From assembly GCF_001620265.1 (NCBI RefSeq), contig NZ_CP012661.1, positions 4,415,001 to 4,479,000 on the forward strand: DNA of 64,000 nt, in the 5' to 3' direction. Below, one piece after another: positions 1-36,613 of this stretch. Numbering within the stretch: the stretch's first letter is position 1; the number at the start of each line of letters is the position of its first letter. The notes under the pieces were generated by a model. That model was not told where the DNA came from, did not search any database, and saw only the letters and a list, made by a program, of their open reading frames with translations. Source of the DNA: Frigidibacter mobilis. Its GTDB lineage: Bacteria > Pseudomonadota > Alphaproteobacteria > Rhodobacterales > Rhodobacteraceae. The translations under genes were made by a program, and so were the position numbers.

Positions 1-385
1 CCGCTTTTGCGAATTTCATCGGCCCTAGGCAACAGGTCATCGCCCAGCACGACTCCGATGGACAGATCGACCCCGGCCTCGGCGGCGGCTTTGGCAAGCG
101 CATCGCTGCAACCACGCGGGTTCACGCCCCCGGCATTGGCAACGACCTTGATCCCTTTTGCCTTGATATCCGGTAACCAGGGTGCCAGCGCCTTGACGAA
201 ATCCGGCGCATAGCCCGACTCGGGCGCTTTGGCGCGGGCCCGCGCCATCAGCGACATTGTCACCTCTGCCAGATAGTCAAACACCAGATAGTCGATCTCG
301 CCCTTTGAGACCAGTTGACCGATCGCTTCCGGCGTATCGCCCAGAAGCCCGATGCACATCCGATGCGCAGTTTTCGTTCCGACAT
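1..385 (-). pseudogene. AtuA-family (DUF1446) protein, N-terminal part, frameshifted and cut by the window edge
   Basis: The reverse strand starts at 385 behind a GGGAGGGAGAG ribosome site and reads MSERKLRIGCASGFW. The family-typical continuation GDTPEAIGQLV...DYLVFDYLAEVT...NAGGVNPRG is in the next frame. Inserting one base in the CCC run at 340-342 restores SGFWGD and an open frame to base 1. AtuA-family proteins occur in clusters for acyclic terpene and related acyl-CoA breakdown; their biochemical role is poorly defined. The gene sits just downstream of an enoyl-CoA hydratase gene on the same strand, so the two probably share a transcript. A restart at the ATG at 359 is possible but would lose the conserved N-terminus. 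The family call is fairly safe; whether the frameshift is real or a sequencing error is unknown. Confidence 0.72.
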
Positions 386-407
386 ATGCCTCTCCCTCCC
401 CGCTTGA

Positions 408-1193
408 TCAGCGGCCCGTCCATTCAGGTTTGCGCTTCGCAATGAAGGCATCGAAGCCTTCGCGCGCGTCTTCGGTCTGCGCTACTCGCGGTAACAGTGT
501 TTCTGCAAACCGCATCTGCTGCGGATAGGTCATGTCCTCCATCGCGTGACAAGCGTATTTTCCCAGCCGGATCGCGCTCGGCGACTGCGCAGCAATCTGG
601 GCAACCAGTTCTGCAACCTTGTCGTCCAACCCCGCGGCATCTGTCACATAGTTGACCAGATTGAACTGCAGGGCCTCCTCGGCCGTCAGAGGAACGCCGG
701 TGATGAACATCTCCATCAGCCTCCGCCGGGGCAGCACGCGCATCATGGGTGGCACGATCGTCATGGGAAACAGACCCACCTTCACTTCCGGCGTTCCGAT
801 GCGGGCATGATCCGCCATCACAGCCAGATCGCAGGCACAGATGATGCCCGCCCCCGCCCCCATCGCGACGCCATTGATGCGCGCGATCGTTGGCTTTCGG
901 CACGCCTGTATCGTCTCGAACAACCTTCCGGCAAAATGATCCGGGTCCGCCGGATCCTGAACAAACGGGCCGCCATCCGCCCCCGCCTTGATGTCGCCCC
1001 CGGCACAGAAGGCGCGCTCGCCCTCGCCGGTCAGAACGATCACGCGGCAATCGCTGTCCCTCTCGGCGGCATATATGGCGGCCATGATCCCGTCCGCGAC
1101 CTCACGGTTGAGGGCATTTCGATTATCAGGACGTCGAATCGTGATACGCACTTCTTTGCCGAGCGCCTGCGATTGAACAACGCTCTCAGTCAT
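408..1193 (-). CDS. enoyl-CoA hydratase/isomerase family protein
   Basis: Crotonase-fold protein of 261 residues that would act on an acyl-CoA intermediate in beta-oxidation-like breakdown. Visible signatures are the oxyanion-hole segment CAGGDIK (about 63-69), NGVAMGAGAG (about 108-116), and both acidic residues expected of a true hydratase, E136 in TPEVKVGL and E161 in RLMEMF. I start at 1193, not at the in-frame ATG at 1214, because a GGGGGGAG box lies about nine bases before 1193. It is divergent from the acyl-CoA dehydrogenase genes, and the intergenic region holds a palindrome matching the one in front of the tandem TetR gene. The AtuA-like gene follows on the same strand. The exact substrate cannot be read from sequence. 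Confidence 0.88.
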   Translation of the reverse strand: MTESVVQSQALGKEVRITIRRPDNRNALNREVADGIMAAIYAAERDSDCRVIVLTGEGERAFCAGGDIKAGADGGPFVQDPADPDHFAGRLFETIQACRKPTIARINGVAMGAGAGIICACDLAVMADHARIGTPEVKVGLFPMTIVPPMMRVLPRRRLMEMFITGVPLTAEEALQFNLVNYVTDAAGLDDKVAELVAQIAAQSPSAIRLGKYACHAMEDMTYPQQMRFAETLLPRVAQTEDAREGFDAFIAKRKPEWTGR

Positions 1194-1269
1194 TTCCGAA
1201 GCTCCCCCCTGCATTCAGGACACCGCGCTTTCTTACGTCAGGTCGTCAAAAGCTTGGCTTGATCTATTT

Positions 1270-1285
1270 TCTAACATGTGTTTGA
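1270..1285. promoter_or_regulatory. probable TetR-type operator, copy 1
   Basis: The 16-base sequence TCTAACATGTGTTTGA is an imperfect palindrome (TCTAACA-NN-TGTTWGA). It lies between the divergent hydratase and dehydrogenase genes. It matches a better palindrome at 7700-7715 in front of the tandem TetR gene, so the same regulator probably binds both. Binding is inferred. Confidence 0.55.
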
Positions 1286-1326
1286 TTTTGGTCAACACTG
1301 CGGACGACATTTTTCGGGAGGATGAT

Positions 1327-2541
1327 ATGACCACTCAAAGTGAGGCCATCTCGGCTGATCTGGAAGCCATCAGGGCGAACTATTCTTTGACCGATGAGCA
1401 ACGTCAGATTGTCGATCACGTGGATCGGGTAGCGCGCGAGGTCCTGCACCCGCTGCAGGCGCGCATGGATGACGAGGAATGGTGGCCCGATGATCTGTTC
1501 AAGCAGATGGGCGAGCTGGGCCTGCTGGGGATTACCGCGCCCGAAGAGCTTGGCGGATCGGGGCAGAACGAATTCACCCAGGCGCTGGTATCCGAGGTTA
1601 TCTCGAAATGGAATCCGGCTGTGGGCCTCTCGCACGGGGCGCATGACAACCTGTGCCTGAACAACCTGCTGCGCAATGGATCCGAAGAGCAGGTAAGGAA
1701 ATATGTGCCGGGTCTTTGCTCGGGCGACCTGGTTGGCGCTCTGGGCCTGACCGAACCGGGCGCGGGGTCCGATGCGCTTGGGTCCATGGCAACCACCGCC
1801 CGCCGCGACGGCGATGACTACGTCATCAACGGCTCGAAGATCTACATCACCAACGGGCCGATTGCCGATGTGATCCTGCTTTATGCCAAAACCGACAAGT
1901 CGAAGGGCGCCAAGGGCATTTCCGCTTTCATCATCGAGACGGACAATCCCGGTTTCAAGGTGGCGCAAAAGCTTGACAAGATGGGATTCCGCGGCTCGCC
2001 AACAGGAGAACTGGTGTTTGAGGATTGCCGCGTACCCGCGTCCGCCATGGTTGGACAGGAAAACACCGGCGTTTCGGTGGTAATGAGCGGGCTGGATCTG
2101 GAGCGTGCCATGGTTGCCTCAGTCTGCGTTGGCATGGCCGAACGCGCGCTGGAACTTGGGCTGGAATACGCCAAGATTCGCGAACAGTTCGGCAAGCCGA
2201 TTGCAAGTTTCCAGATGATGCAGTCGAAACTGGCCGAGATCTACACCGAGGTCGAAACCGCGCGTGCCTTCAGCTATCGGGCGCTGGCCGCCTGTACCGG
2301 GTTGCCGAAAGGGGCCGGTGGCCGCGGCGAAATCCACAAGCTGACTGCGGCGGCCTGTCTTTACGCAGGCGAGGCATTCAACAAGGCGGTGACCGAAGCC
2401 TGCCATATTCATGGTGGCTCTGGCTACATGCAGGACACCGAGATCAACCGGCTGTTCCGCGCCAACAAATTGTTGGAGATCGGCGCGGGAACAAGCGAAG
2501 TCCGCAAGATCATCATTGCCGAAGAACTTTTGCGCGCCTGA
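1327..2541 (+). CDS. acyl-CoA dehydrogenase, isovaleryl-CoA dehydrogenase type
   Basis: FAD-dependent acyl-CoA dehydrogenase of 404 residues that would introduce a 2,3-double bond into an acyl-CoA and pass electrons to ETF. It has the three family domains, with GLTEPGAGSDALGSM near 140-154 and IHGGSGYM near 361-368. The catalytic glutamate appears to be E259 in SGLDLER, while the medium-chain position is IGAGTSEV (385-392) with no glutamate. That is the isovaleryl-CoA dehydrogenase arrangement, so a branched or bulky acyl-CoA is plausible. The start at 1327 follows a GGGAGG box; the upstream in-frame ATG at 1276 overlaps the operator and is unlikely. A close paralogue starts 13 bases after the stop, and the whole run to 6310 looks like one operon. 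Confidence 0.93.
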   Translation: MTTQSEAISADLEAIRANYSLTDEQRQIVDHVDRVAREVLHPLQARMDDEEWWPDDLFKQMGELGLLGITAPEELGGSGQNEFTQALVSEVISKWNPAVGLSHGAHDNLCLNNLLRNGSEEQVRKYVPGLCSGDLVGALGLTEPGAGSDALGSMATTARRDGDDYVINGSKIYITNGPIADVILLYAKTDKSKGAKGISAFIIETDNPGFKVAQKLDKMGFRGSPTGELVFEDCRVPASAMVGQENTGVSVVMSGLDLERAMVASVCVGMAERALELGLEYAKIREQFGKPIASFQMMQSKLAEIYTEVETARAFSYRALAACTGLPKGAGGRGEIHKLTAAACLYAGEAFNKAVTEACHIHGGSGYMQDTEINRLFRANKLLEIGAGTSEVRKIIIAEELLRA

Positions 2542-2554
2542 GGGGGACGAGACA

Positions 2555-3754
2555 ATGAACAAGCAACTGCGCAACGACACCGCTCTGCCAACACATTTCA
2601 TGACGGACGAACAGCAGGCCCTGGCCGATCAGGCCGGCAAGTTCTTCATGTCCGAATTCCACCATCTGAATGCGGAAATGGACGATACTGATGACCTGCC
2701 GTCTTCGGTTTTCCCCAAGCTGGGCGAAATGGGCTACCTGGGACTGAACGTGCCGCCGGAATTCGGCGGCGCTGGTTTGGATTTTACCTCGGCCTGTATC
2801 ATCACCGAACAGCTGTCGCGATCCTCTGCGGCCATCGGACTGACCCATGTGGCGCACGACAACCTCTGCGTCAATAATATCTATCGCAACGCCAATGACG
2901 AGTTGCGCCGAAAATACCTGCCAGGTCTGTGCGACGGCACGCTGGTGGGAGCCCTGGGTCTGACCGAACCCGGCGCGGGGTCTGATGCGCTTGGCTCGAT
3001 GCGGACCACGGCCAAAAAGGATGGCGACGACTACATCCTGAACGGCGCCAAGATCTACATCACCAACGGACCGATTGCCGATCTGGTCCTGGTCTATGCC
3101 AAGACTTCGCCGGAAAAGGGGGCCAAGGGTATTTCCGCTTTCATCGTGGAAACCGACACGCCCGGTTTCAAGGTGGCGCAGAAGCTCAACAAGATGGGAT
3201 TCCGCGGCTCGCCGACGGGCGAACTGGTGTTCGAAGATTGCCGCGTTCCGGCCAGAAACATGGTCGGCAAGCTGGATGGCGGCGTTGCCGTTACCATGTC
3301 CGGGCTTGATCTGGAACGTGCCATCGTCTGTTTCAACGCACTGGGCATTGCGCAGCGGGCGCTGGATATTTCCATCGATTACGCCAAGACACGCCAGCAG
3401 TTCGGCAAGCCGATCGCCAGTTTTCAGATGGTGCAGGCGATGCTGGCCGACATGTATACCCAGATCGAGGCGGCGCGCAGCCTGTCCTTGCGCACCGCGG
3501 CCATGTGTGAGGGCCTCGAAGAGGGCGAAGGCGGGCGCGGCGAAATCCACAAGCTCACCGCTGCGGCGATCTACAAGGCCGCTGAGGCGACATCCTTCGT
3601 GCTGGACAAAGCTGTCCAGATTCACGGCGGCTCGGGTTACATGCGTGATACAGAAGTGAACCGGCTGTACCGGACCGGTCGCGTGCTTGAGGTCGGCGCA
3701 GGCACCCAGGAGGTTCGCAAACTCATCATCTCTGGCGAATTGCTGAAGAACTAG
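2555..3754 (+). CDS. acyl-CoA dehydrogenase, isovaleryl-CoA dehydrogenase type (paralogue)
   Basis: Second acyl-CoA dehydrogenase of 399 residues, clearly homologous along its whole length to the preceding gene, with long identical stretches such as KIYITNGPIAD and GFRGSPTGELVFEDCRVPA. It keeps E254 in SGLDLER as the likely catalytic base and has VGAGTQEVRK where medium-chain enzymes carry their glutamate. The start at 2555 follows AGGGGGACG. Because each copy keeps the catalytic and FAD motifs, both are probably active. They may be two homotetramers of different specificity or one mixed enzyme. The next gene, an SDR, begins 9 bases downstream. Confidence 0.93.
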   Translation: MNKQLRNDTALPTHFMTDEQQALADQAGKFFMSEFHHLNAEMDDTDDLPSSVFPKLGEMGYLGLNVPPEFGGAGLDFTSACIITEQLSRSSAAIGLTHVAHDNLCVNNIYRNANDELRRKYLPGLCDGTLVGALGLTEPGAGSDALGSMRTTAKKDGDDYILNGAKIYITNGPIADLVLVYAKTSPEKGAKGISAFIVETDTPGFKVAQKLNKMGFRGSPTGELVFEDCRVPARNMVGKLDGGVAVTMSGLDLERAIVCFNALGIAQRALDISIDYAKTRQQFGKPIASFQMVQAMLADMYTQIEAARSLSLRTAAMCEGLEEGEGGRGEIHKLTAAAIYKAAEATSFVLDKAVQIHGGSGYMRDTEVNRLYRTGRVLEVGAGTQEVRKLIISGELLKN

Positions 3755-3763
3755 GGGCGGAAC

Positions 3764-4618
3764 ATGAGCGAAGCGAAATCAAGGCGTTACGCGTCCGATC
3801 TCATGGCGGGCCAGGTTGCCCTGGTCACGGGGTCCGGATCTGGAATGGGCCGGGCGACGGCGATCGAAATGGCCTCTTGCGGGGCCAGGCTTGCGCTGTT
3901 CGCGCGCCGCGAAGAGCCGCTGGAAGAGACCGCCGAAATGATCCGGGCGGCGGGGGGCGAGGCCTTTGTCGTGCCCGGAGACACCCGCGACGAAGACAGT
4001 ATCGAAGCTGCGATGGGGCGGATCAAGGACCACTATGGGCAGTTGGATGTTTTGGTGAACAATGCTGGCGGCCAGTATATCGCACCCGCCCGCGATATCA
4101 CCAACAAGGGCTTCGAAGCCGTGATCCGCAACAACCTGATCGGGTCTTGGCAGATGACCCGGGCAGCGGCGGATCACTTCATGTACGACAACGGTGGATC
4201 GGTTGTATTTGTTACCGCCATCTCGGCGCGCACCGCGCTTACCGGCTTTACACACACCGTCGCCGCACGCGCCGGTGTAACGGGCATGATGAAAACGCTG
4301 GCCGCCGAATGGGGCGAGTACGGCATCCGGCTGAACTGCGTCGCACCGGGCACGATCAAGACCGATGCGCTTGGCCGCTATCCGATTCCGCCGGAACAGT
4401 GGAAAAAGCTGAACCGCTCGGTCCTGAACCGGATGGGGGCGGCCGAGGACATCGCTGGCACGATCATTTTCCTGGCCTCGAAACTTGGCGGTTTCATCAC
4501 CGGAGAAGACATTTATGTAGACGGCGGTGAGACCTTGCACATGGGTCATGACGCGCGGGACATGATCAACCCCGCGATGTTCGAGAAACGCGAACGGGGA
4601 GATGGCAAGAATGAGTAA
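3764..4618 (+). CDS. short-chain dehydrogenase resembling 2,4-dienoyl-CoA reductase
   Basis: SDR protein of 284 residues with a Rossmann nucleotide-binding motif TGSGSGMG (22-29) and NNAGG (99-103). The usual YxxxK active site is not present: the aligned residues are T165 and R169 in THTVAARAGV. Loss of the tyrosine, together with AAEWGEYGIR, PGTIKT and the C-terminal DGGE pattern, is typical of mitochondrial/peroxisomal-type 2,4-dienoyl-CoA reductases, which act on unsaturated acyl-CoAs with NADPH. The change of lysine to arginine is less usual. It lies between acyl-CoA dehydrogenase and hydratase genes, which fits removal of a conjugated double bond. An ordinary ketoreductase is less likely. 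Confidence 0.7.
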   Translation: MSEAKSRRYASDLMAGQVALVTGSGSGMGRATAIEMASCGARLALFARREEPLEETAEMIRAAGGEAFVVPGDTRDEDSIEAAMGRIKDHYGQLDVLVNNAGGQYIAPARDITNKGFEAVIRNNLIGSWQMTRAAADHFMYDNGGSVVFVTAISARTALTGFTHTVAARAGVTGMMKTLAAEWGEYGIRLNCVAPGTIKTDALGRYPIPPEQWKKLNRSVLNRMGAAEDIAGTIIFLASKLGGFITGEDIYVDGGETLHMGHDARDMINPAMFEKRERGDGKNE

Positions 4619-5414
4619 ACACCCAGTCCTTCTGGAGATTTCCGACAGGATCGCCACGGTCACGCTGAACGACCCGGAGCGGCGCAACCCGGTCACCGGA
4701 AACGACATGATCGCTGTCCTTCTGGAGACCTTCGCCAAGGTGCAGGCCGATCCTCAGGTCAGCGTGATGATCCTGACCGGCGCCGACCCGGCCTTTTGTG
4801 CCGGCGGCGACATCAAGGAAATGAACGATCCCGACAGCGTGTTCCGCAAGGAGCCGCTGGCGGCGGCGCAGAGCTATGTCGACGGGGTGCAGCGCCTGCC
4901 ACAGGCGCTCTATAACATGGACATTCCCACCATCGCCGCAGTCAATGGCCCGGCGGTTGGCGCGGGGTGTGACCTGACCATGATGTGCGACATGCGCATC
5001 GCATCGGAGAAAGCAAAGTTCGGCGAGGTGTTTCTGAATCTCGGAATCATTCCGGGCGATGCGGGCAGCTGGTTCCTGTTGCGTCGTCTGGGCCACCAGA
5101 AGGCCGCCGATCTGACCTTCTCAGGGCGCATGGTCGGGGCCGAAGAGGCGCTGGAGCTTGGCATGGTGCTTGAACTTGTGCCCCATGAAAAATTGATGGG
5201 ACGGGCCCGCGAACGGGCCGCCGTCATCGCAGCGAAACCACCGCGTGCGGTGCGCGTCGCCAAGCGTCTGATGCGCAATGCCGAACGGATGGATCTACCG
5301 GATTTCCTGAATTCTGCGGCGGCCTATCAGGCGCTCATGCATCAGACCGAAGACCATCACGAGGCGGTTGCTGCGTTCATCGAGAAACGAAAACCCAACT
5401 TTACAGGGCGCTAA
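4611..5414 (+). CDS. enoyl-CoA hydratase/isomerase family protein
   Basis: Crotonase-fold protein of 267 residues, overlapping the end of the SDR gene by eight bases, which suggests translational coupling. Motifs are CAGGDIK (63-69) and NGPAVGAGCDL (about 112-122). The first catalytic acid is kept as E139 in GEVFLNLG; the second position appears to be D167 (AADLTFSG) instead of glutamate, so the exact reaction (hydratase, isomerase or another crotonase reaction) is open. I chose 4611 rather than 4602 because GGGGAG lies at the proper distance from 4611. It is a distant paralogue of the hydratase at 408-1193. Confidence 0.88.
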   Translation: MSKHPVLLEISDRIATVTLNDPERRNPVTGNDMIAVLLETFAKVQADPQVSVMILTGADPAFCAGGDIKEMNDPDSVFRKEPLAAAQSYVDGVQRLPQALYNMDIPTIAAVNGPAVGAGCDLTMMCDMRIASEKAKFGEVFLNLGIIPGDAGSWFLLRRLGHQKAADLTFSGRMVGAEEALELGMVLELVPHEKLMGRARERAAVIAAKPPRAVRVAKRLMRNAERMDLPDFLNSAAAYQALMHQTEDHHEAVAAFIEKRKPNFTGR

Positions 5415-5426
5415 TGGAAGAATTGC

Positions 5427-5909
5427 ATGTCTGATATCTCCAAAAAGAAAATGGAGCAAATCGCGCAGATGTGGAATGCGCGCGGCAAGGGTCTGATAAC
5501 GCATATGGCGCTTGAGATCGAAGAGGTCTCGACTGAAGGCGTTCGCGTTCGGATGCCGTTCAATCCGGACTTTTGCGTCGATGCGGAACAATCGCTGCTG
5601 CACGGTGGTATCCTGACGGCACTTCTGGACAGTGTCTTTGGACTTGCGAACTTTGTTGCCATCGAAGGCGTTAGTACCATGGCCACTCTTGACCTCAGAG
5701 TTGATTACCTGCGCCCGGCCCGTTCGCGCGCGGATGTCATCGTTCAAGCGCATTGTTTTCGCAAGACCCGCCACATCGCCTTCAATTCCGGCAGCGTCTG
5801 GTTCGCGGGCCATGAGCATGCTGAAATAGCCAGGGGAACCGCCTCGTTTGCATTGACGCGCGGCGAAACCAGCCTGTTTGACGCAATGACAAAAGGAAAA
5901 GCCTCGTGA
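5427..5909 (+). CDS. PaaI-like hotdog thioesterase
   Basis: Hotdog-fold protein of 160 residues with the HGG motif at about 59-61 (LLHGGILTALLDS) and DLRVDYLRPA (about 89-98), both typical of the PaaI/YbgC acyl-CoA thioesterase group. It would hydrolyse a CoA thioester, perhaps to release CoA from a dead-end intermediate of the neighbouring pathway. The stop overlaps the start of a second hotdog gene by one base (TGATG), so the two are likely co-translated and may form a hetero-oligomer. The substrate is unknown. Confidence 0.8.
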   Translation: MSDISKKKMEQIAQMWNARGKGLITHMALEIEEVSTEGVRVRMPFNPDFCVDAEQSLLHGGILTALLDSVFGLANFVAIEGVSTMATLDLRVDYLRPARSRADVIVQAHCFRKTRHIAFNSGSVWFAGHEHAEIARGTASFALTRGETSLFDAMTKGKAS

Positions 5910-6310
5910 TGGACGTGCAAACTGTCAATGCCAATGTATCCCGGGTGCCGTTCTTCCGATTTCTCAACTTTGAGGTCAGAAGTCTAGACAGTCTCCATGC
6001 TGAGGCGGAAATGACCTTTGATGACCGCCATATCGGTAACCCGATCATGGAGTACTACCATGGCGGCATAATCGCGAGTTTTATGGAGGCCGCCGCCGCC
6101 ATCGCGGTACAGCCCGATTTCGCCGACGTTCCGGCCAAGCCGATCAACCTGACCGTCGATTACCTCAGACCCGGTGTGAAGGGACCGCTTTTTGCGCGCG
6201 CCAATGTCACGCGCAAAGGCAAGCGGATGGCAAGCGTCAGCGTGCTCAGCTGGCAGACGGATCGGGAAAAGGCGGTTGCCGAAGGGCTGTATCACTTCCT
6301 TCTGGTCTGA
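5909..6310 (+). CDS. PaaI-like hotdog thioesterase (second copy)
   Basis: Hotdog-fold protein of 133 residues, with YHGGIIASFMEAAAA (HGG about 51-53) and NLTVDYLRPG. It resembles its upstream neighbour in motif order but is shorter and distinct. The start at 5909 overlaps the previous stop; a GTG at 5906 is in frame and cannot be excluded. It is the last gene of the plus-strand run that begins at 1327. Its 3' end overlaps the 3' end of the tandem TetR gene, which runs the other way, by 19 bases. Confidence 0.78.
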   Translation: MDVQTVNANVSRVPFFRFLNFEVRSLDSLHAEAEMTFDDRHIGNPIMEYYHGGIIASFMEAAAAIAVQPDFADVPAKPINLTVDYLRPGVKGPLFARANVTRKGKRMASVSVLSWQTDREKAVAEGLYHFLLV

Positions 6311-7690
6311 CCGGGGCAACCGCTTTCTGGGCTACCTTGTCCTGTCGACGGGGCCGCCTCCCGGTGACAAATTCCTTCCAGTAACAGATTGATGAGCATG
6401 CTGGAGAATTCAGGCAGTGATAGATATCCTTCCACTCCTGCCTTGTTCGGGTCGAACCATTCCACCGTCCAGTTCAAAGCACCCAACATCACCTGGCGCA
6501 AGGGGACGATCTTGATATCCGACCGTATGGCACCGTCGTCCTGAGCTTCACGGAGTATCCGATCCCAGAGTTTTCCATATTCATGGCGAATACCCCTGTG
6601 CCTCTCCCTGAAATGATTGGGAGCATTCCATAGCTTCTGATATTCGCCGAGGTGAATTCGCTTGCCTTGAAGAGGAAATCCAGGTGCGCCCAGATTGCAG
6701 TCGCTATCTTGGCGTGATGATCGTACGGGCATCGAATTTCCGAACGGCGGCTTCGACACCTGATAGCAAGTCCCTCAGTCCGGCGTTTAGAACTTCGTCA
6801 ACGATCGCTTCTTTGGAGTTGAAATGGTAATAGACGCTGCCCGCTTTCATGTCCGCTTCTTCCGCGATCTTTCTCAGCGTGGTCGCCTTGTAGCCATTGT
6901 CCCTCAGAACGCGCGCTGCGGCCTTTAGAATTTCTGCACGGGTCTTAGCCGCCTTGCTGTCGGGATCCGGGATCTTGGCGGGAGTGGCGGGGCACAGCTT
7001 CAAGCCTTCGGTATCCGCCTTGCGATGTGGACACATTCCGTCGAGTATCAGCTTACTCATTCGTTCCGCGAGGATGCGCACCGGATACTTGTCGACATCG
7101 TACCATTCTACGGTCCAGTTCATGGCACTCAGGATGAACTGGCGGATCACAGCAGTGGATATGTCGCTTCGAAGGTGGCCGGCGCGTTTGGCGTCATTCA
7201 GGAATTTGCCCCAGGCACCCGCATATGATGCACGCAATTCGCGATGCGGGGCGCGTGTTTCGTCCGACAACATCGGATAGTTCCGAATATTGGCTGACGT
7301 AAAGTCGCTGTCGGTCAATAGGTAGGTAAGGTGTGTTTCAATCAGCAGTCCGAAAGTCTTGCGAAAACCCTCCGAACTTGTCGGTGCCGACCGAACGATT
7401 TCACTGACCGCCTGATATAGTTGACGGACGCCAAGATCGAGAACTTCGCTCAGCATCTGGTCCTTGGATTGAAAATGATAATAAATGCTGCCGGCCTCAA
7501 TGCCAGCTTCCTGCGCGATGTCGCGCATAGTCGTTGCGTGATAGCCTTCATACCGAAAAAGTCGCGCAGCCGCCGAAAGGATACCCTCACGTGTCCTCTC
7601 AGACTTGCTCAAGTCTTCGCTCAGTGTCCTGGGTGGGTCAGTCTTGTGTACCATTCCATTTCGATACTTGCGGGACACGAGACTGTCCAT
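6292..7690 (-). pseudogene. tandem TetR-family regulator (two TetR units in one chain), frameshifted in the second unit
   Basis: Unit 1 has a TetR helix-turn-helix (about residues 33-78, ending SIYYHFQSK) and a ligand domain with FTSANIRNYPML and MNWTVEWYD. After a short linker, unit 2 repeats the pattern: an HTH near 250-295 (SVYYHFNSK), then FTSANIRSYGML and LNWTVEWFD. Unit 2 is intact only if one base is added near 6722 and one in the GGG run at 6619-6621. With both corrections the chain is about 467 residues. The two units are clearly homologous, so this is an internal duplication forming a covalent pseudo-dimer. Such a protein could bind a palindrome as a monomer. The start at 7690 is uncertain (ATG at 7654 is the alternative). 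A palindrome lies 10 bases upstream, suggesting autoregulation. Confidence 0.8.
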
Positions 7691-7699
7691 TGCATTAAA

Positions 7700-7715
7700 T
7701 CTAACAAATGTTAGA
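7700..7715. promoter_or_regulatory. probable TetR-type operator, copy 2
   Basis: TCTAACAAATGTTAGA is palindromic except for its two central bases. It lies between the tandem TetR gene and the divergent BadH-like gene. The same pattern, with one arm slightly altered, is at 1270-1285. It is probably the binding site of the adjacent regulator. Confidence 0.65.
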
Positions 7716-7781
7716 ATAATGCAAGGAACGTTCCGAATCAAGTTCTTTGCCAAGATGATAGCGGAAGAGGAGGACCTCCAT

Positions 7782-8543
7782 ATGCGAGGGTTGAGTGGAA
7801 AACGCGTGATCGTGACCGGCGGCGGCAGCGGCATCGGGCGCGCGGTGTGCGAACGGTTCGGCGAAGAAGGTGCCGAGATTGCGATCTTTGACATGAGCGA
7901 AGACGGGGCGAGGGAAACGGTTCGCCTGATCACCGAGGCCGGCGGCAAGGCGCAGGCCTTCAAGGTGGACATCACCGACCGTGCCCAGGTCGACAAGGCT
8001 GTAGCCGGGTTCGAGGCCGGGGGTCCGGTCGATGTGCTGGTGAACAATGCCGGCTGGGACGTGATCAAACCGTTCCTCGACACCGATCCCAACCTTTGGA
8101 AAAAGGTCATCGACATCAATCTTTACGGTCCGCTGAATATGCATCACGCGGTGCTTCCGGGCATGGTCAAGAACGGCGGCGGCCGTGTGGTTAACATCGC
8201 CTCCGACGCGGGACGCGTCGGATCATCCGGCGAAGCCGTGTATTCGGCCTGCAAGGGTGGCATCATCTCGTTCACCAAAACCGTAGCGCGCGAACTGGCG
8301 CGTAAAGGTATTCAATTGAATGCGGTTGCCCCCGGCCCGACCGATACGCCGCTGTTCGCTCAGGTTGCCGAGGGCGAGGCCGGTCAAAAGATCGCCGAAG
8401 GTCTCAAGCGGGCGATTCCGATGAAGCGCCTGGCGCAGCCGACGGATTACCCTGGCATCATCTGCTTCCTGTCGTCGGACGACGCAGGGTTCATTACCGG
8501 CCAGGTGATTTCGGTTTCGGGCGGCTTGTCCATGCACGGTTGA
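7782..8543 (+). CDS. badH: SDR dehydrogenase similar to BadH (2-hydroxycyclohexanecarboxyl-CoA dehydrogenase)
   Basis: SDR of 253 residues with TGGGSGIG (12-19), NNAGWDV (88-94), S141 in NIASDAGRVGSSG and a complete Y154-SAC-K158 active site, so it should be a functional NAD(P)-dependent alcohol dehydrogenase. The segments NNAGWDVIKPF, MHHAVLPGMV and SGGLSMHG at the C-terminus are characteristic of BadH, which oxidises the hydroxyl of 2-hydroxycyclohexanecarboxyl-CoA in alicyclic acid breakdown. The start at 7782 has an AGAGGAGGACC ribosome site. It is divergent from the tandem TetR gene with an operator between. A role on another cyclic or branched 3-hydroxyacyl-CoA is possible. Confidence 0.78.
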   Translation: MRGLSGKRVIVTGGGSGIGRAVCERFGEEGAEIAIFDMSEDGARETVRLITEAGGKAQAFKVDITDRAQVDKAVAGFEAGGPVDVLVNNAGWDVIKPFLDTDPNLWKKVIDINLYGPLNMHHAVLPGMVKNGGGRVVNIASDAGRVGSSGEAVYSACKGGIISFTKTVARELARKGIQLNAVAPGPTDTPLFAQVAEGEAGQKIAEGLKRAIPMKRLAQPTDYPGIICFLSSDDAGFITGQVISVSGGLSMHG

Positions 8544-8611
8544 AGCCATGACAGCAGCGCCGGACACCAGGCGTTGCTGCCAAACCGTGCCAAAAGAGTT
8601 ACCTCCCGACT

Positions 8612-8638
8612 GGCCGCGCCTTATGTGCGGCCCTTTTT
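8612..8638 (+). terminator. rho-independent terminator after the badH-like gene
   Basis: GGCCGC (8612-8617) and GCGGCC (8627-8632) can pair around a nine-base loop, followed by CTTTTT. It lies in the 114-base gap before the synthetase gene, so that gene may have its own promoter or rely on read-through. Confidence 0.6.
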
Positions 8639-8657
8639 CATTCTAGAAAGGTTGCGA

Positions 8658-10595
8658 ATGTTTCAGCCAGGCTCTGACATCCAGCGGACAAGCACGCTGA
8701 CCTCATTTCTGAAGGGCTGCGGCATTGACAGTTACGAGGAACTCGTCCGCCGTTCGAATGAAGACCCAGACTGGTTCTGGGGCCAGATCATTGACCATGG
8801 CGGGATACGGTTCGCGCAGCCCTACAGCCGGTTGCGAGATATCTCCGAAGGGCCCGAATCGATCCGGTGGGCCGTCGGGAGTACTTTGAATCTGACGGAA
8901 ACCTGTCTTGACGCCCGAATTGCCGATGGCTTGGGCGACAAGGTCGCAATCGACTGGGTCGGCGAAGACGGAAGCCGCCGCCGCTGGACCTATTCCGACC
9001 TTACCGCCGAAGCCTCCCGCGTCGCCTCGGCCCTTGCCACGCGCGGTGTAAGGCCCGGTCAGGCGGTGGGCATCTATATGCCGATGATCCCCGAAATCGA
9101 GGCCGCGCTTCTGGGTATTGCCCGGCTGGGCGCGGTTGCGGTGCCGCTGTTTTCCGGTTTTGCGCCTCATGCCATCGTATCGCGCCTAAACGACGCGGAT
9201 GCCGTGGCGGTGTTGACGGCGGATGCCACACCCCGGCGAGGCAAGCCGGTCTGGATGGAAGCGACCCTTGCCCAGGCTTTGACCGACGTGCCATCGGTTC
9301 ATACCGTGATCAGCCTGCGACGGTTCGGCGGTGCGGTAGCCGATCCCGCCCGCGATCTGGACTGGAGCGAAACCGTGGGCCGCGCCAGTCCGGAGCTTGC
9401 CGCCGTTCCGGTCAAGGCCGAAGACACCTTTCTGATCGCCTATACGTCAGGCACCACCGGACGGCCCAAGGGCGTCGTGCATACCCATCTGGGCGTGCAG
9501 GCCAAGGCCACGGCCGATTTCCTGCTTTGCCTCGACATGAAACGGGATGACCGGCACCTCTGGATGACCGACATGGGGTGGGTCATGGGACCGCTTACCC
9601 TTTTGTCGGTGCTCTTGTCCGGTTCGACTCTGGTGCTGGCCGAGGGCGCACCATCAATGCCCGGCGATCCCTTCAGGCTGCTGCGTCTTGCGTCCGAGAT
9701 GGAGGTCACGCATCTCGGCGTGGCCCCGACCCTGGTGCGGCAGTTCATGACGCAGGATACTGAATCTTTGTCGGGCTACGACTTGTCGTCCCTGCGCATC
9801 GTCGCCTCGACCGGAGAGCCCTGGACCGAGGATGCCTGGCTCTGGCAGCTCGATCATATCTGTCGCCGCCGCGCCGTGCCGCTGAACATCTCGGGCGGGA
9901 CCGAGCTTTTTGGCGCGATCCTGACCTCGACCGTGCTGCACGAGCTCAAGCCCGGCGGATTTTCGGCCCAGGCCCTGGGTGTCGGGGCCAAGGTTCTGCG
10001 CCAGGACGGCAGCGAAGCCGCACCGGGCGAGGTCGGCGAACTGGTCGTGACCCAGCCGCCTCTGGGTCTGACCCCGGCCATCTGGGGGGACCGCGATCGC
10101 TACCTTGAAACCTACTGGTCCACCTTCCCCGGCCTCTGGCGGCACGGCGACTGGGTGCGCTGCGATCCGGACGGGACATGGTATATCCTGGGCCGGTCGG
10201 ACGACACGCTGAACATCGCCGGCAAACGCATCGGCCCGCCCGAGATCGAGGCGGCCCTGACCGAAACCGGAGAGGTGGTGGACGCCGCTGCCATCGCGGC
10301 ACCTGATGACATCAAGGGCGTGGCCGTCGTCTGCGTCTGCGTGGCGGCCCCAAATGTGTCGCCGGACGCGGAGCTCGTGAACCGGCTCAAGGATCGTGTC
10401 GGAGAGATCGTCTCGAAGCCCTTCCGCCCGCGCGAGATCCACTTTGTCGAAGCGCTGCCCAAGACCCGCAGCATGAAAACCATGCGCCGTGTCGTGCGTG
10501 CCGCCTTTCTCGGTGAAGATCCGGGCGATCTGTCGTCGATCAGCAACCCGGAAACCATTCAGCCCATCGCAGACCTGCAAAAGGAAAAGTCATGA
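8658..10595 (+). CDS. acyl-CoA synthetase, acetyl-CoA-synthetase-like (AMP-forming)
   Basis: ANL-superfamily ligase of 645 residues that would activate a carboxylic acid to its CoA thioester through an acyl-adenylate. Visible motifs are TSGTTGRPKG (263-272), the GGTE motif, the YWSTFPGLWRHGDW segment typical of the acetyl/propionyl-CoA synthetase branch, GRSDDTLNIAGKRIGP, and the C-terminal lysine region PKTRSMKTMRR, where the usual glycine before the lysine is methionine. The length matches acetyl-CoA synthetases. It begins after a short leader and its stop overlaps the start of the next gene. It probably supplies the CoA ester that feeds the cluster; the acid is unknown. Confidence 0.88.
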   Translation: MFQPGSDIQRTSTLTSFLKGCGIDSYEELVRRSNEDPDWFWGQIIDHGGIRFAQPYSRLRDISEGPESIRWAVGSTLNLTETCLDARIADGLGDKVAIDWVGEDGSRRRWTYSDLTAEASRVASALATRGVRPGQAVGIYMPMIPEIEAALLGIARLGAVAVPLFSGFAPHAIVSRLNDADAVAVLTADATPRRGKPVWMEATLAQALTDVPSVHTVISLRRFGGAVADPARDLDWSETVGRASPELAAVPVKAEDTFLIAYTSGTTGRPKGVVHTHLGVQAKATADFLLCLDMKRDDRHLWMTDMGWVMGPLTLLSVLLSGSTLVLAEGAPSMPGDPFRLLRLASEMEVTHLGVAPTLVRQFMTQDTESLSGYDLSSLRIVASTGEPWTEDAWLWQLDHICRRRAVPLNISGGTELFGAILTSTVLHELKPGGFSAQALGVGAKVLRQDGSEAAPGEVGELVVTQPPLGLTPAIWGDRDRYLETYWSTFPGLWRHGDWVRCDPDGTWYILGRSDDTLNIAGKRIGPPEIEAALTETGEVVDAAAIAAPDDIKGVAVVCVCVAAPNVSPDAELVNRLKDRVGEIVSKPFRPREIHFVEALPKTRSMKTMRRVVRAAFLGEDPGDLSSISNPETIQPIADLQKEKS

Positions 10596-11446
10596 TCACT
10601 GTTTTCGGAGCCACGGGCACGACTGGCGCGCCCCTCGTCGATACGCTTCTGGCAAAAGGCGCGTCCGTGCGCGCTGTCACCAGCGCCCCCTCCAAGTTAG
10701 ATGCGCTAAGGGCCAAAGGATGCGAGGCGGTCGCAGCGGATTTCACGGACCCTGCCGCGCTGGCGCGGGCCTGTGACGAGGCAGAAAAGATATACCTGGT
10801 CACGCCTGCCCATCTGAACATGCGCCAGTGGAAGGCGAACGTGATCGAGGCGGCCAAGGCCGCGGGCGTGCGCCATATCGTTGTGGCCACGGGGCTTGGC
10901 GCGTCGCCCAAGGCGGGGCTGACCTTTGGAAAGTGGCATTCCGAAACCCAGGAGCTGCTGAAGCAAAGCGGCCTTGACTGGACCTTTGTCCAGCCGACCT
11001 ATTTCATGCAGAACCTGCTGTGGCAGGCCGGCAACATTGCAAAGGACGCCGTATACTATGACGATCTGGGCGGCCCCGTGGCCTGGATCGACGCCCGCGA
11101 CATCGCGGATGTCGCCGCCGAGGCGCTGACCGCTCCGGGTTACGAAGGCAAGGCTCTTGGCCTGACCGGGCCCGAAGCTCTTACCGGAGAAGATATCGCG
11201 GCCCTCCTGTCCGGGGTGACCGGGCGCACTGTCACCTGCGCGCCCCTGTCGGCCGAAAATGCCAAGGCGGGCATGGTGGCTGGCGGAATGCAGGGCGAGG
11301 TCGCCGGAGCCATGGTCGAATTGGCTTCCATCGCGCCCATGGGCTACCTTGCCAGCATCGAGACCACGGTCAGCGATGTGATGGGACGCCCGGCGCGCCG
11401 ATTTGCCGATTTCGTCGCCGAGAACCTGGATGCTTTCGTCAAGTAA
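10592..11446 (+). CDS. NmrA-like NAD(P)-binding protein
   Basis: Protein of 284 residues with an N-terminal dinucleotide motif GATGTTGAP (6-14) and the atypical SDR layout of NmrA / QOR2-type proteins. Members act either as NAD(P)H:quinone oxidoreductases or as redox-sensing regulators without catalysis. There is no YxxxK motif in the usual place. Its ATG overlaps the stop of the synthetase gene (ATGA), so it is translationally coupled. Its role in the cluster is unclear. Confidence 0.72.
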   Translation: MITVFGATGTTGAPLVDTLLAKGASVRAVTSAPSKLDALRAKGCEAVAADFTDPAALARACDEAEKIYLVTPAHLNMRQWKANVIEAAKAAGVRHIVVATGLGASPKAGLTFGKWHSETQELLKQSGLDWTFVQPTYFMQNLLWQAGNIAKDAVYYDDLGGPVAWIDARDIADVAAEALTAPGYEGKALGLTGPEALTGEDIAALLSGVTGRTVTCAPLSAENAKAGMVAGGMQGEVAGAMVELASIAPMGYLASIETTVSDVMGRPARRFADFVAENLDAFVK

Positions 11447-11450
11447 CCTG

Positions 11451-12155
11451 ATGGTGGCGCCGCTTTATCTCGAACTGGCGCCGCCCGAGGAAGCGGCCAA
11501 ACAGATCGACCATCTGTTCGTGTTCCGCGATACCGGTGTGCTGAGCGGTGGTGGACGCGGGCGGTTCGCAACCGACCTCTTTACCCTTTCGGTAACGCGC
11601 GACGACAGCGGCGGGGCGCGTGTATCGCTGGCGCCACCGCGCTCGGGTTTCACTCCCCGCCCAAGTCCATTCCATGGTGTCGTGGCCGGGCTGAGGCTGT
11701 CGTCACGACCGAAGCACTTAGCCGAATCCGAAGTGCTGGACACGTTGGCCTCAGAACTAGCCCGTGTTCAGACCGGTGACGATGACCTGCCTGCGCTCAT
11801 CGCCGTGCTTGACGGCCTTGCGAGAGACCTGCGCTTTGCCGCACCACCCGGAGCTTACTGCGACCGGACCAAACGTCGAAAGGTGCGGGCGGATACGGGC
11901 GTGTCGCGGCGGCGGCTTGCGACCTTGCGACGCTTTCGCCAAGCTCTTGGGCAACTCGCGTCAAAGACCCTGCCGCTGAGCGATCTGGCGCTGGACGCCG
12001 GATATTACGATCAATCTCATTTGTCCGCCGCTTGCCGGATCTTCGCCGGCAAACCGCCCGGCGCGTTGCGCGCTCAGTCCGTTCCGCGTCGTTTTGACCT
12101 TTCGCTACAAGATACGCGCCTCAAAGACCGCCTAAGATTTGTCATTGACGAATGA
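11451..12155 (+). CDS. AraC-family transcriptional regulator
   Basis: Protein of 234 residues. The C-terminal third has an AraC HTH pattern: RRRLATLRRFRQALGQL followed by LPLSDLALDAGYYDQSHLSAACRIFAGKPPGAL, where the second helix-turn-helix is clearest. The N-terminal part looks like the sensing domain of small AraC-type regulators of the 'APLYLELAPP' kind. I use the ATG at 11451, four bases after the previous stop; an in-frame ATG at 11430 overlapping the NmrA-like gene is possible. It may regulate the synthetase/NmrA-like operon or the next gene. Confidence 0.7.
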   Translation: MVAPLYLELAPPEEAAKQIDHLFVFRDTGVLSGGGRGRFATDLFTLSVTRDDSGGARVSLAPPRSGFTPRPSPFHGVVAGLRLSSRPKHLAESEVLDTLASELARVQTGDDDLPALIAVLDGLARDLRFAAPPGAYCDRTKRRKVRADTGVSRRRLATLRRFRQALGQLASKTLPLSDLALDAGYYDQSHLSAACRIFAGKPPGALRAQSVPRRFDLSLQDTRLKDRLRFVIDE

Positions 12156-12176
12156 AATCGAAGAGGAAGACCCGCC

Positions 12177-12631
12177 ATGACGCAATTCAAACCGAAACAC
12201 CCCGACTATGACGCACGCGTGCGCGACAGTTTCGATCGCCAGAAGGTGATGAACACGTTGGGGATCAGCATTGCCGAGCTATCGCCCGGCCGCATTGTTC
12301 TGGAGATGGCACATGAGGATGCCCTGACCCAGCAACATGGGTTTTTGCATGCCGGAATCGTGTCGACAGCGCTGGACAGCGCCTGCGGATACGCGGCCTT
12401 TTCGCTGATGCCGCGGACGCGGCCGTTTTGACAGTCGAATTCAAGATCAACCTGCTCAACCCGGCGGATGGCGAACGGTTTCGTTTCGTCGCTAACGTGG
12501 TGAAACCAGGCAGGACGCTGACCATTTGCGAGGCGCGTGCCTATGCCGTGAAGGGCCAGGATGAAAAGCTCGTCGCAACGATGACCGGAACACTTATAGC
12601 GCTGGTGGGGCGAACGGGCGTGGCGGGGTGA
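12177..12631 (+). pseudogene. PaaI-like hotdog thioesterase, frameshifted
   Basis: The gene starts at 12177 after GAAGAGGAAG and reads the front half of a PaaI-type thioesterase (QQHGFLHAGIVSTALDSACGYAAFSLMP). It then runs to a stop in the wrong frame at 12431. The rest continues in the next frame as VEFKINLLNPADGERF to 12631. Adding one base near 12411-12412 gives SLMPADAAVLTVEFKINLL, which is the expected hotdog helix-strand junction. The corrected length is about 151 residues. It is the third hotdog gene in the cluster. It ends 20 bases before the convergent synthetase remnant. Confidence 0.75.
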
Positions 12632-33666: not shown

Positions 33667-36613
33667 GCCCTCCGCCACCCCGCGCCTGTTCGCCCTGCCC
33701 TGCGGTGCAGATTTTCCGGCGGCGCTGGTCGATGGGATGATCGCACGGATGGCGGGCCAGCCGCCCGAGGCGATGGCGCGGGCGACGCTGTACCTCAACA
33801 CCCACCGGATGCTGCGCCGGGTGCGCGAGGTGTTCGGTGCCCGCGGCGCCCGGCTGCTGCCGCGGCTACGGCTGGTCACCGACCTTGGCCGCGATCCGCT
33901 GGCGGGGATGCCGCCCGCGATCCCGCCGCTGCGCCGCCGGCTGGAGCTGGCCCAACTGGTGGCGGGCCTTGTGGCGAACCAGCCCGATTTCGCGCCCGGC
34001 ACTGGCATCTATGACCTTGCCGACAGCCTTGCCACCCTGATGGACGAGATGCAGGGCGAGGGCGTGGACCCGGCCGCGCTGGAGCGGCTCGACATTGGCG
34101 ACCATGCCGCGCATTGGCAGCGGGCACTGGCCTTCATCCGCATCGTCGCGCGCTATTTCGACGGGTCCGAGGCGCCGGACCCGAGGCACGGCAGCGCCAT
34201 GTGGCCGAGGCGCTGGTCCAGGCCTGGGCCGAGGCGCCACCCGAAGGGCCGGTGATCGTTGCCGGGTCGACGGGCTCGCGCGGGGCCACGGCGCTGTTCC
34301 TGCAGGCGGTGGCGCGGCTGCCGCAGGGCGCGGTGCTGCTGCCCGGCTTCGACTTCGACCTGCCCGATGCGGTGTGGACCGGCCTCGATGACGGCACCTT
34401 CCCGGCCGAGGATCATCCGCAATACCGCTTCTGGACGCTGACTCGCGCGCTCGGCCTCGCCCCGCGCGACGTGGCGCGGTGGAGCGAGGCGCCGGCCCCC
34501 AGCGATGCGCGCAACCGGCTGGTCTCGCTCGCGCTGCGGCCCGCGCCGGTGACGGACCAGTGGCTGACCGAGGGCGCGCGGCTGACCGACCTTGCCGGGC
34601 CACCGCAGGGCTGACCCTGATCGAGGCCCCCAATCCGCGCACCGAGGCGCTGGCGATCGCGCTGCGGCTGCGGCAGGCGGCCGAAGACGGCGTGCGCGCC
34701 GCGCTGGTCACGCCCGACCGACTGCTGGCGCGGCGGGTCGCGGCCGCGCTGGACCGCTGGGGCATCGTGCCCGACGAATCCGCGGGCCTGCCGCTGGTGC
34801 TGTCGCCGCCGGGGCGGTTCCTGCGGCATGTGGCGGCGCTGGCCGGGCAGAAACTGACGGTCGAGGCGCTGCTGACCCTGCTCAAGCACCCGCTGACCTG
34901 CTCGGGCGGCGAGGCGCGCGGCCCGCACCTGCTGTTCACCCGCGAACTGGAGTTGCATCTGCGCCGGCATGGGCCGGCCTTTCCCGCGGCGGCCGATCTG
35001 GCGAAGTGGGCCGCGAAGGGCCCCGAGGATGGGCGCGCCGCCTGGGTCGCCTGGCTTGGCGAGACCCTGAGCGGGCTGGAGGAGCTCAGCGGCGAATACC
35101 CGCTTTTAGCCTGTGTAGAGACGCTTCTGGCACGCGCCGAGGCTTTGGCCGCCGGGCCGGGCGGCTCGCCGCGCACACTCTGGGCCGAAGCCGCGGGGCG
35201 CGAGGCGGCGCGGATCCTGAGCGAGCTCAGGCGCGAGGCCCGCATGGTGGCCGCTTCTCGCCCCATGACTTCGCCGACCTGCTGGCGACGCTGCTGCAAG
35301 CCGGATCCGTTCGCACCCCCGACGCGCCGCACCCGCTGATCGCGATCTGGGGCACGCTCGAAGCACGGGTGCAGGGCGCCGATCTGGTGATCCTGGGCGG
35401 GCTGACCGATGGCGTCTGGCCCGAACTGCCGCCGCCCGATCCCTGGCTGTCGCGCAAGATGCGGGCCGAGGCGGGCTTGCTGCTACCCGAGCGCCGCGTC
35501 GGCCTTGCGGCGCATGATTTCCAGCAGGCGGTCGCGGCGCACAAGGTGGTGCTCAGCCGCGCCCTGCGCGATGCCGAGGCGGAAACCGTGCCCTCGCGCT
35601 GGCTGAACCGGCTGACCAACCTGCTGAACGGGCTGGCGTCGCAGGGCGGCCCGCAGGCGCTGGCGGCGATGCAGGCGCGGGGCGCGGCGCTGGTTGCGGA
35701 TGCGCTGCGGCTGGAGGCGCCCGGGGCCCCGGCTCCCCGCGCCCATCGCCCCGCCCCGCGCCCGCCGCTGGCCCACCGCCCGCGCGAGCTTGCAGTGACC
35801 GGCATCCGCACGCTGATCCGCGATCCCTATGCCATCTACGCCCGCCATATCCTGCGGCTGCGCCCGCTGGACCCGATCGGCGCCGCGCCGGATGCACGGC
35901 TGCGCGGGCAGGCGCTGCACCTGATCGTCGAGCGCTTCATCCGCGAGCGGCCGGCAGACGAGCCCGCCGAAGCGGCCGCAGCCAGGCTGCTGGCGGTCGC
36001 CGAAGAGGTGCTGGCGGCCGAGATCCCCTGGCCCAGTGCGCAGCGGCTGTGGCGCGCGCGGCTGGCGCGCGTCGCCCCCCGCTTCCTGGCGGCAGAGGCG
36101 GGGCGCGCGGCCCGTGGCACGCCGCTGCTGATCGAGAAAAGCGGCTCTGTGACACTGCAAACGCTGCAGTTTACCCTCACCGCCCGCCCCGACCGGATCG
36201 ACCTGCTGGAAGACGGAAGGGTCCATATCTACGACTACAAGACCGGCGAGCCGCCCAGCCTGAAGAAGCAGGAGCACTTTGAAAAGCAACTGCTGCTGGA
36301 GGCGGCGATGGCCGAACGCGGCGCCTTTGCGGCGCTTGGCCCGCGCGAGGTGGAGGCCGTCACCTATATCGGCCTTGGCACCGGCGCCAAGCTGGTCACC
36401 AACCCGCTGGAGGATGGCATCCTTGGCAAGACCTGGTCGGGCCTGCACCGGCTGATCGGCGGCTATCTGGTGGAGGGGCGCGGCTACACCGCCCGCCGCG
36501 CCATGTTCGAGACCCGCGATATCAGCGATTACGACCACCTCTCGCGCTATGGCGAATGGGAGCTGAGCGAGGCCGCCACGCCCGAACGCGTCGGCCCGGA
36601 GGGGGCCGCATGA
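33659..36613 (+). pseudogene. addB: double-strand break repair protein AddB, with three frameshifts
   Basis: The AddB sequence begins MFEPSATPRLFALPCG and changes frame at about 34180-34183, 34607-34610 and 35249-35252. Each shift is corrected by adding one base, giving EAPDPEARQRHVAEAL, GPPQGLTLIEAPNPRTEA and MVARFSPHDFADLL. The corrected protein is about 985 residues, normal for alphaproteobacterial AddB. It ends with the RecB-type nuclease region (IYDYKTGEPPSLKK), which cuts the 5' strand. AddB pairs with AddA, encoded by the next gene, whose start overlaps by four bases. Confidence 0.9.

Follow-up and report, generated by a model that had tools for sequence, protein, structure and literature searches.

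Candidate natural single-chain TetR repressors and a shared candidate palindromic operator at an acyl-CoA catabolic gene cluster of Frigidibacter mobilis and its relatives

In textbooks TetR repressors are homodimers, and most single-chain TetRs have been products of engineering. Here we analyze a gene in a stretch of 64,000 nucleotides from the Frigidibacter mobilis genome (NZ_CP012661.1, positions 4,415,001 to 4,479,000; hereafter the window), whose relatives encode two TetR units on one polypeptide, together with the palindrome that is its candidate operator. The fold of each unit is matched by KstR2 (67.9-68 bits with the A1 profile), PfmR and FadR-type TetRs, which have one unit per chain and act as homodimers with other operators. 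The single-unit TetR_C_24 repressors of Bradyrhizobium and other bacteria (loci L107-L116 and proteins P0121-P0240, a set that includes two longer proteins of 361 and 368 aa) share with the double TetR both Pfam domains and the recognition-helix core; as they have one unit per chain, two chains per palindrome would be expected.

Natural double TetR family regulators (TFRs) have been described as an infrequently occurring subfamily. The one solved natural single-chain case that we found is Mce3R of Mycobacterium tuberculosis (PDB 9b7y). Mce3R is described as having one ligand-binding domain, recognizing a nonpalindromic 25-bp operator with nonidentical helix-turn-helix (HTH) domains and forming homodimers through helix 15, which made up 63% of particles, with DNA looping suggested (PMC11667970). 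Like Mce3R, the intact homologues of the gene in the window have two TFR units per polypeptide. However, the identity between Mce3R and the present double TetR is only 16%, and with the A1 profile Mce3R scores 62.1 bits, a value exceeded by 13 of the single-unit sequences tabulated with it (it ranks below five in the case of P0001, the best homologue in the present family). As Mce3R is thus outranked by single-unit TetRs, nothing points to a shared fusion. Further, in contrast to the asymmetric site of Mce3R, the computed features of the present family are a candidate palindrome and a recognition core shared by the two HTHs. Membership of an Mce3R orthologue group was rejected on the sequence rank, the conserved palindrome and the shared recognition core. 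Hence, the family appears to belong to the double-TFR kind already known from Mce3R, with its palindromic site and its alike HTHs seeming to set it apart. Among the papers listed by a literature search, whose loose word matching also caught "tetra-" terms, there was none on this family, and the available part of the paper on GplR1, which is called an unusual TetR, holds no hint of two units (PMC12455991).

Taken together, the comparisons below lead us to propose, with a probability of roughly 65%, that the double chain replaces the TetR homodimer, placing its two HTHs on the halves of one palindrome, and that it represses acyl-CoA operons and its own gene.

Architecture and conservation of the double TetR

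Both TetR_N domains of the gene score above the Pfam cut-off and lie within one 472-aa open frame on the minus strand. The ATG at 7690 opens a chain of 328 aa with two TetR_N domains and one TetR_C_24 domain before a stop at 6704-6706, so that as assembled it terminates inside unit B. The remainder of unit B is found in two other frames, one of about 6725-6625, which holds the FTSANIR motif, and one of about 6620-6292, which holds TetR_C_24 and the NWTVEW motif. The initial annotation, made from the sequence alone, had read here two TetR units on one protein, each with its own HTH, its own ligand-binding core and these landmark motifs. This reading holds in its coordinates as well as its motifs: TetR_N and TetR_C_24 occur twice from 7690 down to 6292, and the homologues are intact. 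Its suspicion of the stretch 6600-6730 was likewise justified, the two frame breaks lying at approximately 6.62 and 6.73 kb.

A homologue search with the open 328-aa part recovered 1186 matches, of which the best 120 measure 402-486 aa. The first of these, P0001, has 466 aa and shares 98% identity, and all 36 proteins aligned from these best 120 cover both units. An intact homologue that is nearly identical is found in Pseudooceanicola atlanticus (L042). Among 76 loci from named genomes, 61 have an open reading frame (ORF) with two HTHs spaced by 214-219 residues and 10 (L107-L116) have a single unit; the remaining five were missed by the ORF filter. The homologue search for two TetR_N domains proposed in the initial annotation thus finds the relatives to be one gene: rather than always occurring as two genes, the units lie in single open genes in relatives up to 98% identical. 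Of the 66 loci L041-L106, 60 have a short-chain dehydrogenase (SDR) with at least 73% identity upstream of the regulator on the opposite strand, a count from which a weak match in L099 was excluded. These observations indicate that the two-unit gene is real and no artefact of the frame breaks.

The C-terminal domain appears all-helical, with TetR_C_24 in both units (out of frame in unit B of the window) and a helical structure model for P0001. That model (predicted template modelling score, pTM, of 0.83) matches Mce3R (9b7y) over its full length, and units A and B are predicted to pack as in this solved single-chain TetR, forming one intramolecular pseudo-dimer. The ScbR family profile (NF041196) gave 154.3 bits against a cut-off of 150, but it matched two stretches, for which a cut-off set for one unit is not meaningful. 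Identity with KstR (NF033703) was rejected, the score being 50.8 bits against an NCBIfam cut-off of 280.

Two minor observations concern individual double TetRs. A double TetR with 73% identity (L101, 6001-7371) lies on a contig labelled as a metagenome-assembled genome (MAG) of Marinobacter, which would reflect either gene transfer beyond the class or faulty binning. In genomes of the L087 type a 220-aa TetR-like ORF directly follows the double gene (G706:C604:13336-15360).

The candidate operator and its distribution

We inspected 58 intergenic regions between regulator and SDR (57 loci and the window), leaving out L090, L091 and L104, where the HTH was not recognised; 25 regions remained after removal of near-copies. 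In these 25 the palindrome TCnAACAnnTGTTnGA has 1.6-2.0 bits in 11 of its 12 specified columns and 1.13 bits at the A before the centre, and its left flank from -30 to -4 has at most 0.65 bits. The variable third position shifts alike in both halves, being T, G or A on the left with the complements on the right. This conserved palindrome at the regulator promoter fits the binding of one chain per palindrome.

The window contains two exact sites (1270 and 7700) where 0.05 are expected, and the whole genome contains seven, with none for a reversed-pattern control. Genes near the five sites outside the window, on the chromosome and contig C4, encode a class III CoA-transferase, a thiolase, an FMN-type reductase and an acyl-CoA dehydrogenase, and none of the genome's 20 TetR_N matches lies within 25 kb of these five. 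The 66 loci together contain 87 exact sites, compared with one for the control, and 28 of the loci have at least two; many close loci again have a site at a distance of about 6.4 kb from the regulator. As a separate observation, a CoA-transferase block on the chromosome (C1:4371000-4387000, L121) has two operators 3.66 kb apart, and a similar block is found on contig C4 (40000-58000, L123).

Among 295 genomes of the family, the nine carriers of the double TetR have 7, 6, 2, 5, 5, 7, 5, 6 and 7 sites and the remaining 286 have 0-3. At least four sites are thus seen in eight of the nine carriers versus none of the 286 others (Fisher p 7e-15, computed over genomes that are not independent where they have a common transferred cluster). 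In a class-wide sample of 385 genomes, a two-unit match was found in three (the window's genome, G570 and G646) and a single-unit match in seven more; the strict palindrome is confined to two, the window's genome and G570.

Unfused relatives complicate this association. The window's genome encodes a single-unit TetR 15 kb from the double and outside the window (C1:4406150-4406776, L124) as well as a second close copy of it on contig C4 (18729-19355, L125); its recognition core is that of the double. A close relative of this single is present in all eight genomes with at least four sites; hence the association points to this TetR family rather than specifically to the double. When 32 genomes that carry the double were tested, the single was found with at least 63% identity in 22 and was missing from 10, several of the latter being MAGs that are perhaps incomplete. 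The exact palindrome lies at the double's own promoter in six of these ten (L062, L075, L089, L098, L099 and L100) and is missing there from L090, L102, L103 and L106.

The palindrome is also found in eight of the 10 single-unit loci, with 13 sites versus none for the control. We further examined the genomes of twelve loci (eleven genomes, L108's being left out), eight of which are single-only. These eight have no two-unit match, and seven of them have three to seven exact sites, mostly on the contig of the single-unit gene; G327 has none. Thus, fused and unfused repressors appear to use the same site, and given this shared site the simplest reading would be that the fused chain is a covalent form of an old homodimer.

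Origin of the two units and alternative readings

In a quick tree of 96 units, 35 A units, 35 B units and 24 units of single-chain proteins each fall on one side of a branch, with SH-aLRT (Shimodaira-Hasegawa-like approximate likelihood ratio test) supports of 96, 58 and 95, respectively; this tree has no bootstrap and no trustworthy root. A single event of duplication and fusion in a repressor of the TetR_C_24 type, retained since, explains the A and B clades as they appear on this tree, and the A and B units are likely to be sisters. Within a protein, identity between units A and B averages 65% for the HTHs and 39% for the cores. Across A, B and single units the recognition-helix core hardly varies, and the landmarks FTSANIR and NWTxEW are retained in both A and B. 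A 412-aa double TetR from another alphaproteobacterium (L017, genome G040, 1456-2691) likewise has two TetR_N stretches in one chain; its units group apart from the present family, outside the tree on end branches of length 10. It is probably an independent fusion, which suggests that fusion has probably happened more than once among TetRs.

The mechanism that we favor would run as follows: 1) a TetR_C_24-type repressor would have been duplicated once and fused to give a covalent TetR pair; 2) its units are predicted to pack against each other inside one chain; 3) the two alike HTHs would bind the two halves of TCnAACAnnTGTTnGA, one chain per palindrome; 4) this site, found between the regulator and the BadH-like dehydrogenase and also before other acyl-CoA catabolic operons, would allow the double TetR to repress, most likely, these operons and its own gene; 5) an acyl-CoA intermediate would free it from the operator; and 6) in many genomes the nearby unfused relative with the same recognition core may share the sites. 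The wider form of this proposal, namely a symmetric natural single-chain TetR that occupies the palindromes of its unfused relatives one per chain, with pockets free to diverge and with operators for which it competes or cooperates with a co-resident single in many genomes, is more tentative, and we place it a little short of an even chance. If true, the fused family and its unfused sisters with the same site would be ready-made natural pairs in which to compare what fusion buys a repressor in affinity, ligand response and pocket divergence.

Several observations weigh against the proposed role of the double chain, in addition to the non-independence of the genomes compared and the presence of the single in every site-rich genome. 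The right flank of the palindrome is partly conserved, giving it a mild asymmetry; a consensus promoter scan of 7600-7850 found none; and the B clade has a support of only 58. The one carrier among the nine that lacks the single, G089, has two sites, and G646 has a two-unit match with zero strict-form palindromes. No exact site was found in seven of the 66 loci (L065, L090, L091, L102, L104, L105 and L106), although L105 and L106 have a variant palindrome at the promoter. The genome of Sneathiella (G331, locus L098) has three double-TetR genes and one exact palindrome, its operators perhaps having drifted. Two further counts, given next, tell against more than one reading.

The main or even the sole reader of the dispersed palindromes might instead be the unfused TetR in the same genome (the C1 gene and its C4 copy), with the double acting locally or as a competitor. 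The common recognition core, the co-occurrence of the single with sites and with most double carriers tested, and the location of a copy of the single some 26-34 kb from the site pairs with 3.66 kb spacing on C1 and C4 agree with this. We nevertheless regard it as unlikely: the 15 kb and 10 kb analyzed around the single genes L124 and L125 contain no exact site, and six of the ten single-less double carriers keep the exact promoter site. An exact site near the regulator start is found in only 43 of the 66 loci, which weighs against the main proposal, yet the same 43 contrast with the lack of sites around the single genes. Similarly, G035 and G239, which have more distant singles and no double, contain 0 and 1 site, which weighs against an unfused reader as well as against the main proposal. 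Equally doubtful, by analogy with Mce3R, is that the double chain is mainly a homodimer with four HTHs that bridges two operators by DNA looping, the fusion then serving cooperativity between distant sites instead of binding as a monomer. Looping has been proposed for the Mce3R homodimer (PMC11667970), and the operators here are paired, as at 1270 and 7700 in the window, in the 3.66 kb blocks and in the many close loci with a site about 6.4 kb off. However, paired sites perhaps just mark the heads of separate operons, and single-only genomes, which cannot use single-chain bridges, show similar site spacing. Less probable still is the two-input switch suggested in the initial annotation, where pockets A and B would bind different ligands for AND/OR control of one operator. 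The units have evolved separately since the fusion, their cores have seven columns fixed differently, and the B cores are the more conserved in 547 of 595 pairs. These seven columns and the 39% core identity neither prove nor exclude such a switch, and FTSANIR and NWTxEW in both units point to the same ligand class; moreover, Mce3R is described with a single ligand-binding domain (PMC11667970).

The window copy itself could have truly decayed to a pseudogene, or it could encode a shortened but working regulator of unit A and the second HTH, in which case its regulon would be released or differently wired. For this speaks the stop at 6704 in the frame as assembled. Further, in a comparison with 10 relatives over 12.3 kb the window has six private one-base length differences, two of them within the double-TetR gene, against 0-2 in each relative, a figure lowered by near-copies among them. 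Yet both breaks in the gene, as well as at least two of the other four private differences, are in short homopolymer runs, and the codons in which the copy departs from most relatives, 15 of them synonymous and 9 non-synonymous, are inside the range of the neighbours. Frame breaks are also seen elsewhere in the assembly. Compared with a same-genus genome (G001:C37, placed by IF-2), it shows nine strictly counted breaks in 76 kb, three of them in one gene. Some of the nine perhaps only mark where one gene ends and another begins, or belong to the relative, an example being the meeting of two overlapping ORFs at 52.87 kb, and the rate is uncalibrated, as the control pair G002/G001 has no overlap. 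The strict count is preferred over a loose count of 37 that is inflated by antisense ORFs and gene boundaries. Single-base gaps number 83 in this assembly versus 59 in the same-genus relative, with 12 versus 5 in runs of at least four. Because of the homopolymer runs, the other breaks in the assembly and the excess of single-base gaps, the frame breaks of the window copy are probably sequence errors rather than decay, and a genuine loss of unit B is unlikely, if slightly less so than the readings by an unfused reader or by looping. Programmed frameshifting at unit B was rejected, as the relatives stay in one frame. The gene with three of the nine breaks lies at 34180-35240 in the window and is a single 1009-residue frame in the same-genus genome.

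Gene neighbourhood and likely regulon

The gene cluster around the regulator (Table 1) encodes two acyl-CoA dehydrogenases, two SDRs, enoyl-CoA hydratases, two hotdog thioesterases and an acyl-CoA synthetase. Given these catabolic neighbours, and the KstR2, FadR and AibR folds among the matches listed, we infer by analogy that an acyl-CoA intermediate would release the double TetR. The palindrome predicts an acyl-CoA catabolic regulon, which could be a guide to the substrate of this marine and widely transferred cluster.

Table 1. Coordinates in the window of the double-TetR gene, its domains, the candidate operators and neighbouring genes
Feature	Position	Strand	Remarks
Double-TetR regulator gene	6292..7690	-	as assembled, two breaks in unit B; relatives intact
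TetR_N HTH, unit A	7442..7582	-	75 bits
TetR_C_24 ligand/dimerisation core, unit A	7037..7348	-	residues 115-218; protein E 5.9e-14
TetR_N HTH, unit B	6791..6931	-	65.8 bits; same frame as unit A
TetR_C_24 core, unit B	6370..6618	-	E 5e-10; other frame in this assembly
Stretch with two frame breaks	6610..6735	-	one-base length differences, short homopolymer runs; none in 10 relatives compared
Candidate operator, palindrome TCTAACAAATGTTAGA	7700..7715	.	between regulator and divergent SDR
Second candidate operator TCTAACATGTGTTTGA	1270..1285	.	head of acyl-CoA dehydrogenase operon
Divergent SDR, best NCBIfam match BadH	7782..8543	+	371 bits, cut-off 431
AMP-forming acyl-CoA synthetase, likely target operon	8658..10595	+	
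Two acyl-CoA dehydrogenases, likely target operon	1276..3754	+	ORFs 1276-2541 and 2411-3754; the actual starts probably lie further inside
SDR, enoyl-CoA hydratase, two hotdog thioesterases	3764..6310	+	same direction as dehydrogenases

The DNA of the cluster (300-12626 in the window) is about 95-96% identical to copies in many other genera, including Oceanicola, Pseudooceanicola, Primorskyibacter, Thalassobius, Ruegeria, Sedimentitalea, Sulfitobacter, Shimia and Maritimibacter, and such identity across genera suggests recent transfer of the cluster between them.
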